Below, in pieces: positions 26,182 through 29,761 of a DNA stretch of 64,000 nt (position 1 is the stretch's first letter; every line of letters starts with the position of its first letter). Position numbers and translations under genes: made by a program. Source of the DNA: Chloroflexota bacterium (GTDB lineage Bacteria; Chloroflexota; Dormibacteria; Dormibacterales; Dormibacteraceae). The notes beneath the pieces are model-generated. The model had not been told where the DNA came from. It saw only the letters and a list, made by a program, of their open reading frames with translations, and made no database searches. Location: the NCBI GenBank assembly GCA_005880695.1, contig VBGR01000043.1, positions 1 to 64,000 of the forward strand, written 5' to 3'.

Positions 26182-26588
26182 CGCTCGCCCGGCAGCTCCA
26201 CAACCACGTTGGTCGCCTTGACCGCGGCGACCGCGCGGACGCCGGGCGCCAGGCCGAGCTCGTCAGCGGCCTCGCGCGACATCAAGGACACGACCCGGAA
26301 GGGGCCGGCCTGCATCTCTACCTGCGCCATCACCGTGTCCTTCAGGACGCGCGTGACGATGCCGGGGAAGCGGTTGCGAGCCGACTGGCCGACGATCGGC
26401 GGTGGCTCGGCCGGCGGTGGCTGGGCCGCCAGGTAGCGGGCCAGATCAGCGGCGTCGATGTGACGGTGGCCGCCGGCCGAACGCACCGTCTTGAGCCGGC
26501 CCGCGTCAGCGAGGCGCCGCACCGAGTCGACGCTCGTGCCGAGCAGCTCGGCCGCCTGGCCCATTCGGTAAGATGCGCCAGCTTTCAC
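26178..26588 (-). CDS. Molybdate-responsive regulator: excisionase/MerR-type HTH plus Mop domain
   Basis: Putative DNA-binding regulator of the molybdate operon, 136 residues. The N-terminal part (YRMGQAAELLGTSVDSVRR) is an excisionase/MerR-like helix-turn-helix, and residues about 68-136 form a single Mop/TOBE domain that binds oxyanions (ARNRFPGIVTRVLKDTVMAQVE). It is much shorter than E. coli ModE, which has a winged helix and two Mop repeats, but resembles short regulators of actinobacterial mod operons. The GTG start has a TAGGCT hexamer 7 nt upstream, overlapped by an inverted repeat, suggesting autoregulation. Confidence 0.8.
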   Translation of the reverse strand: MKAGASYRMGQAAELLGTSVDSVRRLADAGRLKTVRSAGGHRHIDAADLARYLAAQPPPAEPPPIVGQSARNRFPGIVTRVLKDTVMAQVEMQAGPFRVVSLMSREAADELGLAPGVRAVAAVKATNVVVELPGER

Positions 26589-26595
26589 TCTTGGA

Positions 26596-26638
26596 AGCCT
26601 AGCAGACGCTAGAAATCAGTCGAGAGTATCTGGCTAGC
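26596..26638 (-). promoter_or_regulatory. Candidate promoter/operator of the mod operon
   Basis: On the minus strand TAGGCT (26596-26601) lies 7 nt before the GTG of the regulator gene. It is overlapped by the inverted repeat CTAGC-N4-GCTAG (26599-26612), and a further palindrome GCTAGC lies at 26633-26638. Repeated GCTAG half-sites at a -10 element fit binding by the operon's own HTH-Mop protein. This is inference; no footprint is available. Confidence 0.45.
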
Positions 26639-26641
26639 GCC

Positions 26642-26679
26642 AATAAAAACGAGGCGGCGCCCAGAACGGCACCGCCTCG
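26642..26679 (-). terminator. Strong minus-strand intrinsic terminator upstream of the mod operon
   Basis: On the minus strand an 8-bp perfect stem CGAGGCGG / CCGCCTCG (26650-26657 and 26672-26679), with further GCC/GGC pairing inside, is followed directly by TTTTTATTG. No protein gene on this strand ends here. It must therefore close a small RNA or a leader that starts further upstream, or act as an attenuator ahead of the mod genes. Confidence 0.75.
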
Positions 26680-26940
26680 GCCGCTCCGTCCGTCTCGCGC
26701 AACACAGGTCTTGACCGGCGCCCCTCAGGGCCGTCGCCTCTTATGGAGGCCCACCCTTGCGCGGCGTTTCGTTGAACGGATGCGGCAATCACGCTCGGTT
26801 ATGAAACGGGGACCTCTGGCTGGTCGCCGAGCTGGGACGCAAAGCGGGAACTTTTGATACGTCCGCTATAAGTTCTTGGCCACTACTTTAACCCTCTGCG
26901 GAGAAAGATCAAGGGCACACCAGAAGGTCCTCAGGGGGCG
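26680..26940. other. Non-coding stretch, possible small RNA or leader on the minus strand
   Basis: There is no convincing protein gene. On the minus strand several small helices can be drawn (CCTC-CATAA-GAGG, GGTC-AA-GACC, and GCTCGG/CCGAGC around 26793-26832) and the stretch runs straight into the terminator at 26642-26679. A TATAAG/CTTATAG sequence near 26866-26872 could be a promoter in either direction. tmRNA, RNase P RNA and SRP RNA signature sequences were looked for and not found. The identity is unknown. Confidence 0.3.
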
Positions 26941-27306
26941 GTGGAAAACCCCTGGAAAAAGCAATGACCCCAACCGACTTCGTCCCATCCGGACCTCGCC
27001 TTGCGGCGCTTTCCGAACGGCCCGCCGTCGATCGGAGCCGCCGCGAACTGTACTCGCGGGATAGCTAAAGTCGCAACTCCGAACTGTTGTGCGCTGCCAG
27101 GCTACGAATCGTTGCCACAACCACCGCGCCAGTGTGGAAAACCTGTTGAAAAGAAGTGACCCCAACCAACTTCGTACCATCCGGACCTCGCCTTGCGGCG
27201 CTTTCCGAACGGCCCGCCGTCGATCGGGGCCGCGGCAGACTTTACGGTTAGGGAATGGCCAGGCGCAAGTCCCAAACTGTTGTGCGCCGCCAGGCTACGA
27301 AATCCA
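26941..27306. repeat. Imperfect 193-bp tandem duplication
   Basis: Two copies start at 26941 and 27134, each beginning GTGGAAAACC. They share a 51-bp identical core (26985-27035 and 27177-27227) and a nearly identical right part ending GCCAGGCTACGA. The period is 193 bp, with a 1-bp slip inside. The right end of copy 2 contains the first codons of the methyltransferase gene (ATGGCCAGG). The equivalent place in copy 1 reads ATAGCTAAAG and cannot start a protein. It is probably a duplicated promoter and gene start with one decayed copy. Confidence 0.85.
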
Positions 27307-28094
27307 GCCGATCCACGCCGCTCAGGTGCTGGGTTTGTGGCTCGCAGCTCGCGCTCCGAGGGGACCGCCGGGACCGCCTGGAGTGCCCGCGAAGGGACAG
27401 CCGGGTGCTCGCCGCGGAGGGCATCTTCGACCTCTGGCCGCCCGAAGAGCGAGCGCCTCGGCTGGACGCCTACGCGACGCCCTTCGGGGCGGCGTACGAC
27501 TTCGGCGTGAACCGGCCGGCCCTCGCCCGCGTGGCGGCCAGGATCGAGTACGGAGCCGACGTCGCACGCATGTATGAATGGATGGCGGAGGTGCTCGACT
27601 GCCCGCCCGGACAGATCGTGCTCGACGTGCCGGCCGGCGGCGGGACGCTCTTCTCGCGCGGCGCGCCCAAGCTGGGCGGCCTGCTGGTCGGGATCGACCT
27701 GAGCCAGGCCATGCTGGCGCGGGCAGCTCGGCGCCGGCGGATCCTGGGCCTTGAGGAGCACGTCCTGCTCGCTCGCGGCGACGCCACGCGCCTGCCGCTG
27801 GTGGCGGGGGCCGTCGACCGGATCGCCTGCTTCAACGGCCTCCACGTCATCCCCGGCAAGAGCGCCGCCCTGGCCGAGTTCCGGCGGGTCCTGAAGCCCG
27901 GCGGAGAGCTGCTCGGCACGTCCCTCATCAGCGACCCGCCTGGCTTCCACCGCAGGGTGATCGGCCTTGCCCAACTGGCCGGCTTCTTTGTGCCCCCTGC
28001 GGCCGCCCAGCTTGCGGCCCTCGCCAAGCGCGCCGGCTTCGCGAAGTGGGAGCAGAAGCTGGACGGCGCCTTGCTGTACTTTCGAGGACAATAG
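27255..28094 (+). CDS. Class I SAM-dependent methyltransferase with N-terminal zinc-ribbon-like cysteines
   Basis: Methyltransferase of 279 residues. A short basic leader is followed by CWVCG and a downstream Cys in LECPRRD, resembling the half zinc ribbon seen in RlmA-type enzymes. The Rossmann domain starts near residue 115 with motif [13 protein letters not shown], then acidic motif [12 protein letters not shown] and motif IV region [12 protein letters not shown]. The acceptor is unknown; a small molecule or quinone-type substrate is as likely as RNA. The ATG and first 17 codons lie in the right end of a 193-bp duplication. A GTG at codon 10 is an alternative start. Confidence 0.75.
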
Positions 28095-28120: not shown

Positions 28121-29761
28121 ATGGCCGTTCCTTCCTATTCGCACGGCGCCAGCTCGATCCCGCTCCTGGGCGAGACGATCGGCGAGAACCTCCGCCGGAC
28201 CGTTGAGAAGTTCGGTGACGGCGAAGCGTTGGTCGTGCGTCAACAGGGCTTTAGATGTACTTACAAAGAGCTCTGGGAGCTGAGCGGGCGCGCTGCTCGC
28301 GGGCTCTTGGGCCGCGGCGTGGGCAGGGGCGATCGGGTCGGCATCTGGGCTCCGAACCGATACGAGTGGGTCGTGGTCCAGTACGCGACGGCGCGGATCG
28401 GAGCCATCCTCGTCAACATCAATCCCAATTACCGGACCAGCGAGCTCGAGTACGCGCTCAACCAGTCGGGGACCGGTTTCCTGATCCTGGCCAAAGGGTT
28501 CCGGAACGCCGACTACATGGGGATGCTGGCGGAGGTGCGGGGCCGCTGTCCGAATCTCCGGGCAACGCTTGTGTTAGAGGACGATTGGGAGGCCCTGCTG
28601 CGCGACGGCGACAAGGTGGCCGAGTCGGACCTGGCCGAGCGCGAGTCACACCTCCAGTTCGATGACGCGATCAACATCCAGTACACGTCGGGCACGACCG
28701 GGTTTCCGAAGGGGGCCACGCTCTCGCACCACATGATCCTCAACAACGGCTATTTCATCGGCGAGGGAGTCCACTACACGGAGCACGACCGGGTCTGCAT
28801 CCCCGTTCCCTTTTATCACTGCTTTGGCATGGTCCTCGGCAACCTGGCCTGCACGAGTCACGGCTCCACGATGGTGATCCCGGCCGAGGCTTTCGACCCA
28901 GTGGCCGTGATGGAGTGCGTGCAGGAAGAAAAATGCACGTCGCTCTATGGCGTGCCGACGATGTTCATCGGCGAGCTCGACCACCCGCGTTTTAGCGAGT
29001 TCGACTTCTCCAGCCTGCGCACCGGCATCATGGCCGGCGCACCCTGCCCGGTCGAGGTCATGAAGAAGGTCAAGTCGACGATGCACATGCCCGAGGTCAC
29101 GATCATGTACGGCATGACGGAGACCTCGCCGGTCTCCACCCAGAGCGCGATCGGCGACCCGCTCGAGAAGCAGGTCGGAACCGTCGGCCGCGTTTACCCG
29201 CACGTCGAGATCAAGATCGTCGACCAGGCGAGCGGCGAGATCCTGCCGCGCGGCGAGCCGGGTGAGCTCTGCACGCGGGGGTACTCGGTGATGCTCGGGT
29301 ACTGGAACAACGAGGAGGCGACGCGCCAGGCGATCGACGCCGCCCGCTGGATGCACACGGGCGACCTGGCGGAGATGGATGAGGAAGGCTACGTGAAGAT
29401 CGTCGGCCGCTTGAAGGACATGATCATCCGGGGCGGCGAGAACATCTATCCGCGCGAGATCGAAGAGTTCCTGTACACGCACGCCGATGTCTCCGACGCC
29501 CAGGTGATCGGCATTCCGAGCGAGAAGTACGGCGAGGAGGTCATGGCCTGGGTCAAGCTCAAGCCCGGAGCCAGCCTGACCGGCGACGACCTGGCCGCTT
29601 TCTGCAAGGGAAAGATCGCGAGCTACAAGGTCCCTCGCCACTGGAAGTTCGTCGACGAGTTCCCGATGACCGTGACCGGCAAGGTCCGCAAAGTCGAGAT
29701 GCGGGACGTGTCCGTGAAAGAGCTCGGCCTGGAGGCGGCGGCCGCGATCTCCACCGCTTGA
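28121..29761 (+). CDS. Acyl-CoA ligase (AMP-dependent synthetase)
   Basis: Activates a carboxylic acid to its CoA thioester through an acyl-AMP intermediate; sequence type is closest to medium/long-chain fatty acid ligases. The 546-residue protein has the P-loop [11 protein letters not shown] (about 188-198), the adenylate motif YGMTETSP, the hinge region [20 protein letters not shown] and the C-terminal Lys in TVTGKVRK. A good Shine-Dalgarno GGAGGT at 28105-28110 sets the ATG. The gap to the methyltransferase is 26 bp, so they may be co-transcribed. Confidence 0.9.

Follow-up and report, generated by a model that had tools for sequence, protein, structure and literature searches.

Organization of the locus

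Candidatus Dormibacterota occur widely in soils, and almost none have been cultured. The window, the 64,000-nucleotide stretch of DNA analysed here, belongs to a genome (G000) of one family of this group (f1); a second genome, G001, is of the same genus. On the minus strand, an intrinsic terminator lies between two plus-strand genes and the molybdate operon, and ends an RNA that is here named RNA-A.

28121-29761, plus strand: gene for an AMP-binding acyl-CoA ligase, upstream of RNA-A
27255-28094, plus strand: gene for a methyltransferase, the nearest real gene upstream of RNA-A
26645-26679, minus strand: intrinsic terminator of RNA-A with its T tract (stem 26679-26650; from a scan, the alignment and inspection)
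26596-26604, minus strand: TGCTAGGCT, putative extended -10 of modE, 7 nt before the GTG start
26588-26178, minus strand: modE, with a GTG start, downstream of RNA-A
26181-25426, minus strand: modA, downstream of modE

The terminator stem (26679-26650, minus strand) has 12 pairs, 10 of which are G-C, and a loop of 6 nt, followed by TTTTTATTGG / TTTTT; the tail directly 3' of this G+C-rich hairpin reads TTTTTATT. The first-pass annotation had recognized an intrinsic terminator here, which is confirmed and is conserved; its figure of 8 bp for the stem was an underestimate. A simple terminator scan found one, against a mean of 3.2 in shuffled sequences, a number not above chance, so that conservation was needed to decide. 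Across an alignment of 37 sequences, drawn from 36 genomes, the stem is conserved, with 99.3% of cells paired over 11 pairs.

A mechanical minus-strand open reading frame of 104 aa (26866-27180) appears in the window's list of open reading frames. It was rejected as a gene because stops or frame changes interrupt it in G001 and because changes there fall on all three codon positions (9, 6 and 7). As had been noted from the sequence at first reading, no gene precedes the terminator on its own strand, and the nearest real upstream genes lie on the plus strand.

RNA-A is a conserved, non-coding structured RNA

The terminator ends a real, uncatalogued gene for a small structured RNA that is specific to one family. 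Its parts, all on the minus strand, are as follows.

26885-26912, minus strand: predicted promoter, TTGATC (26912-26907), 16 nt, TAAAGT (26890-26885), from box matches
26645-26878, minus strand: predicted transcript, from a start about 7 nt past the -10 box to the T tract
26643-26787, minus strand: conserved core, a 98.8-bit match to covariance model R1, which was built from 29 sequences including the window's own
26774-26786, minus strand: 5' arm of closing helix P0/P1 (GCCGC 26786-26782, CCGTTC 26779-26774), pairing with 26691-26680
26680-26691, minus strand: 3' arm of closing helix P0/P1 (GGACGG 26691-26686, GCGGC 26684-26680; arm-swap test and fold)
26759-26763, minus strand: 5' arm of helix P2, CGCGC (alignment and helix model)
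26696-26700, minus strand: 3' arm of helix P2, GCGCG (alignment and helix model)
26736-26750, minus strand: hairpin P3a, GCCTC-CATAA-GAGGC, with paired columns invariant in 37 sequences
26720-26731, minus strand: hairpin P3b, GCCCTGAGGGGC (alignment and helix model)

RNA-A is non-coding, as had been claimed for the stretch before the terminator. No frame is open across all 37 sequences (the three frames are open in 15, 12 and 8 of them), the longest closed open reading frame is 18 aa and the length of the core varies modulo 3.

The predicted fold of 26643-26795 (minus strand) is more stable than those of shuffled sequences (z = -3.2, 1 of 200 as good), and that of one relative's RNA-A behaves similarly (z = -2.7, 4 of 200 as good). 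A six-helix model was drawn on one sequence and tested on 37 sequences, from 36 genomes, aligned without regard to structure. In these, 95.4% of cells are paired and 11 of the 38 pairs show changes on both sides. The first-pass annotation had noted that the stretch before the terminator can form several helices and had suggested seeking compensatory changes in relatives.

The covariation score was 0.135, against 0.076 after shuffling (0 of 500 reached 0.135) and 0.018 to 0.055 when partners were slid. As relatedness inflates this shuffle test, every 5' closing arm was also paired with every 3' closing arm. Among 34 distinct rows, the mean was -21.0 kcal/mol with cognate arms and -17.0 kcal/mol with mixed ones (0 of 5000 permutations), and among 15 hand-picked divergent rows -19.4 versus -14.2 kcal/mol (0 of 5000), a test that likewise leaves relatedness in. 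Counting against this reading, only 7 of the 15 divergent rows have the cognate 3' arm in first place. The closing helix P0/P1 covaries, and its fold is established. Hairpin P3a lies outside the covariation test since it never varies (7 of 7 pairs in 37 of 37 sequences); the same is true of the terminator stem, in which changes occur on one side only in the 37-sequence alignment.

Distribution of RNA-A

In a BLAST search with window positions 26640-26990 (minus strand), 35 of 61 genomes gave matches at E ≤ 0.01, many of which covered only positions ~227-346 of the query, its last 120 nt with the terminator. Thirty loci were returned. L021 and L030, whose matches covered just a short 3'-terminal segment, were left out of the alignment; the 29 sequences at the remaining 28 loci, aligned without regard to structure, gave model R1 (146 positions). 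Run over 110 genomes of the class with Infernal's stricter filters, at the loss of some weak matches, R1 matched 38 genomes at E ≤ 0.01. RNA-A was present in 36 of the 42 genomes of family f1 (28 had supplied R1 and eight were newly found by it). Outside the family, two of 68 genomes (G067 and G070) gave marginal matches (E 0.003, 68 nt against the 146-position model), which were set aside. An exact core pattern searched over 84,980 species matched 32 stretches, 31 of them in records titled Candidatus Dormibacterota/Dormibacteraeota or 'Chloroflexi bacterium' MAGs (judged by title). The other, from Microvirga, was rejected: the remainder of the RNA is absent there, and the stretch resembles the end of a coding sequence.

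The family genomes that gave no R1 match are G005 and G017 (one genus), G012 and G021 (one genus), G016 and G034; the last two are 71 and 78% complete. No RNA-A was found in the ~1.1 kb upstream of the ligase gene in G005, G017 and G012 (assembled), nor in G059 and G038, which represent two other families. R1 gave chance scores (best 9.1 bits) on the ligase-upstream loci of these five genomes and of G021, whose contig begins inside the ligase gene.

A single R1 match was obtained in 34 of the 36 carrier genomes. The second match in G105 is weak (E 0.009) and that in G031 (L015, 1650-1794) is a partial tandem copy, with neither its own promoter nor a pairing 5' arm of the closing helix. Its closing arm ranks 14 of 15, and it looks like a partial duplicate.

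Transcription signals

RNA-A is predicted to have its own sigma-70-type promoter at a near-constant distance. The boxes TTGACA and CANNNT, 17-18 nt apart, occur 71-81 nt before GGCCTC in every copy outside G000, G001, G006, G008 and G013, apart from the partial second copy of G031, which has none of its own. In G008 the boxes are TTGAGA-17-TATGGT at 76 nt. TTGATC in G000 and TTGACC in G001 each stand 16 nt from TAAAGT, and G006 and G013 have weaker related boxes, which score 6.5 points out of a maximum of 12.5 and do not exceed second choices elsewhere. The boxes of G000, G001, G006 and G013 all lie 154-161 nt before GGCCTC, giving a longer predicted transcript in these genomes.

A probable trans-acting small RNA

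RNA-A is most likely an independently transcribed structured sRNA gene of one Candidatus Dormibacterota family that acts in trans (probability about 0.72). A small RNA was among the readings offered at first sight of the sequence, and conservation, covariation, promoter and terminator all argue for it. RNA polymerase would start at the sigma-70-type promoter of RNA-A itself and stop at its own terminator, yielding an RNA of ~150 nt in most genomes and a predicted ~230 nt in the window. In the proposed fold, closing helix P0/P1 would abut the terminator hairpin and be followed by P2, opening into P3a and P3b. P0/P1 and P3b, which tolerate compensatory change, would serve as scaffold, while P3a, the stem of which never changes, would together with its flanks be the likely working face. 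Its action in trans may then consist in base-pairing with mRNAs or in binding to a protein. Judged from sequence, its transcription, its length and its action in trans are all probable.

Bacterial sRNAs that act in trans, are transcribed independently and end at an intrinsic terminator are a known kind. RNA-A resembles them in its sigma-70-type promoter, predicted length of 150-230 nt, lack of coding capacity and 3' terminator, and in staying in place while its downstream neighbours change. It differs in having a branched core with an invariant hairpin stem instead of an obvious single-stranded seed, and is unrelated to any catalogued family.

An anti-Shine-Dalgarno role for GGCCUCC of P3a was considered and rejected. 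The pattern TGGAGGCC-N1-9-ATG occurs at 11-45 sites per genome of the family versus 9-58 in other families, with no enrichment, and is not lower in two genomes without RNA-A (27 in G005, 45 in G012); it pointed to no target. GGCCUCC sites exceed the backward control in both groups of genomes (24 vs 9 in G000).

Comparison with known RNA families

Rfam models matched only tRNAs in the window at the gathering score. On 26500-27350, at E up to 10, the only matches were BcKCsr2 (17 bits, cut-off 40) and SNORD17 (12.8 bits, cut-off 45), with the best alignment at the terminator. The covariance-model search proposed in the first-pass annotation gave nothing relevant, and RNA-A is uncatalogued. At eight relatives' RNA-A loci, with E up to 5, a single miRNA match was found, outside RNA-A.

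RNA-A might instead be a protein-binding or housekeeping RNA, such as a 6S-like RNA or the core of a ribonucleoprotein, and not an antisense regulator. The invariance of the P3a stem columns in all 37 sequences and the occurrence of a single match in nearly every carrier are consistent with this, and like 6S RNA (RF00013) RNA-A is a stand-alone structured RNA with closed ends. Nevertheless, we regard it as possible but less likely. RNA-A does not match RF00013 and is branched and presumably shorter than 6S RNA. Across 110 genomes RF00013 gave matches at E ≤ 0.01 in 29, none above the cut-off, none at RNA-A and none in G000; in five carriers of RNA-A, though, weak 6S-like matches were found at other loci (in G001, for example, on C85 while RNA-A is on C105). 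Nor is RNA-A the small SRP RNA: RF00169 scored above its cut-off in 36 of 41 genomes, and the SRP RNA of G000 sits elsewhere, on C43.

The sub-threshold 6S matches (for example, G017 C35:66530-66643) reach up to 46.3 bits against a cut-off of 46.4. They are probably divergent 6S RNAs of Dormibacterota that the Rfam threshold just misses.

Neighbouring genes and the molybdate operon

The ligase gene lies divergently upstream of RNA-A in 32 of 36 loci. Downstream, a same-strand GT87 gene follows in 18; 12 others lack GT87 and have a convergent MFS gene, two have modE, and in four none of these three was found (one of the four, L026, is cut by the contig end). RNA-A is thus independent of its downstream neighbours, which vary while the RNA is kept.

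An improbable alternative to trans action is a leader acting in cis on the gene that follows, GT87 in the original arrangement, with an old attenuator kept after rearrangement. A cis effect is possible at the 18 loci with same-strand GT87. However, fold, promoter boxes and terminator are also kept at the 12 loci with convergent MFS. By inspection, moreover, no good antiterminator is visible, as only ~5 nt of the core are available for pairing with the terminator arm; pairing of this arm with P3a (~5 pairs against the 12-pair terminator) was rejected on the same basis.

The first-pass annotation had also proposed a leader or attenuator controlling modEABC, perhaps by sensing molybdenum cofactor (Moco) or molybdate. 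RNA-A does end ~50-60 nt before same-strand modE in the window and in G001. Elsewhere the two are apart, which leaves this explanation very little room. Of 41 genomes searched, 31 gave ModE homologues, including 21 of 25 in f1. RNA-A and ModE are both present in 18 f1 genomes and adjoin in only two, G000 and G001, of one genus. In 15 of the 18 they are on different contigs, with GT87 or MFS downstream of RNA-A in every case, and in G004 they are 46 kb apart. RNA-A is kept where other genes follow. In addition, a -10-like motif belonging to modE itself stands 7 nt ahead of the start codon. TGCTA, followed by G/A and A/G, stands close before the extrapolated ModE start in all eight readable loci of ten fetched (G000, G013, G006 and G003 in f1; G046, G040, G052 and G042 in another family), and because of this extended -10-like motif the mod operon looks independently transcribed, with almost no leader. 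Taken together, the rarity of adjoining ModE and the promoter-like motif of modE point to a stand-alone RNA-A rather than a molybdenum leader.

The search for the Moco RNA motif (RF01055) over 26500-27350, negative at E up to 10, likewise lends no support to sensing of Moco or molybdate. Like that motif, RNA-A is a structured RNA beside molybdenum genes, although in the window's genus only; unlike it, RNA-A has no model match and, in other genera, no linkage to modE. That the molybdate neighbour is confined to one genus is a caution that the next gene can be a poor guide to the ligand of a leader.

The idea that terminator and inverted repeats are fortuitous and without function, with which the terminator count in the simple scan would agree, has a negligible probability given family-wide conservation and compensatory changes.

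Two further observations concern modE. An inverted repeat, CGCTAG...CTAGCG, was seen by eye at 26607-26639 (minus strand), just upstream of the putative modE promoter motif; it is possibly an autoregulatory operator of the modE product, a MerR-HTH/TOBE regulator. In G001, the ModE match beside RNA-A (C105) runs off the contig end, and a second match at C35:15496-15852 (L127), aligned from residue 18, has different preceding sequence and one stop. The latter may be the continuation of the C105 copy or a second copy.

RNA-B, a multicopy hairpin RNA upstream of RNA-A

A tandem repeat of 192-193 bp upstream of RNA-A, outside the interval 26642-26940, holds two copies of a second RNA, RNA-B, so that RNA-B, RNA-B and RNA-A are clustered in that order.

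27145-27244, minus strand: RNA-B copy 1, -10 box TAAAGT (27244-27239), 75-nt hairpin (27231-27157) and U-rich tail, from models and read loci
26953-27052, minus strand: RNA-B copy 2, -10 box TACAGT (27052-27047), 75-nt hairpin (27039-26965) and U-rich tail, from models and read loci

The consensus fold is -57 kcal/mol for the minus strand versus -32 kcal/mol for the plus strand. A DNA search found close relatives besides those in G000 only in G001, G006 and G013. With E ≤ 0.01, model R2, built from six copies in these four genomes, reached 36 f1 genomes and, weakly, one of another family (G037, E 0.002), making 37 of the 110 in all. Model R3, built from 41 copies and used at E ≤ 1e-4, found 83 copies in 39 of 42 f1 genomes (one to four each) and none in the 68 others; the window carries two of the four copies of G000.

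Sixty-four copies found by R2 were read, the -10 box being the first six positions of the model match. The box is TAxxxT in 58 copies, and the first paired base follows it by 7 nt in 62 and by 8 nt in two, so that the whole transcript would be one hairpin. All 64 fold as closed hairpins of 63-83 nt, with T at 5-9 of the 12 bases that follow. The upper arms covary among 60 distinct hairpins (cognate -19.8 versus mixed -14.1; 0 of 5000 permutations). Rfam gave no match at 14 RNA-B loci with E up to 2. No exact match to the common form of the 5' end was found in viral contigs, a form that the window's own copies also fail.

This family of uncultured soil Candidatus Dormibacterota probably owns two new RNA families, the branched RNA-A and the multicopy hairpin RNA-B. 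Within the literature searched, no sRNA regulator or ribonucleoprotein RNA of the phylum would have been described before them. That search, which covered few subscription journals, found no paper on Dormibacterota small RNAs. It did return a soil coassembly (PMC10434106) and a survey of candidate structured RNAs (PMC2864571). With alignments, promoters and covariation-supported helices to hand, both families can be searched for in soil metatranscriptomes at once.

No common neighbour of RNA-B was found among 20 proteins at six loci. The neighbours include citrate synthase with TadE, a lipoyl acyltransferase with an SDR, glycosyltransferase 2 (at three loci) and a histidine kinase. Conserved blocks, GTAGCC-N-GGCTAC or GGTTGGCGGCGAACTGACTTTCGG, precede the RNA-B promoter in the window (~27079-27108 and ~27272-27301) and in L190-L245, and may be an operator or an upstream promoter element common to the copies.
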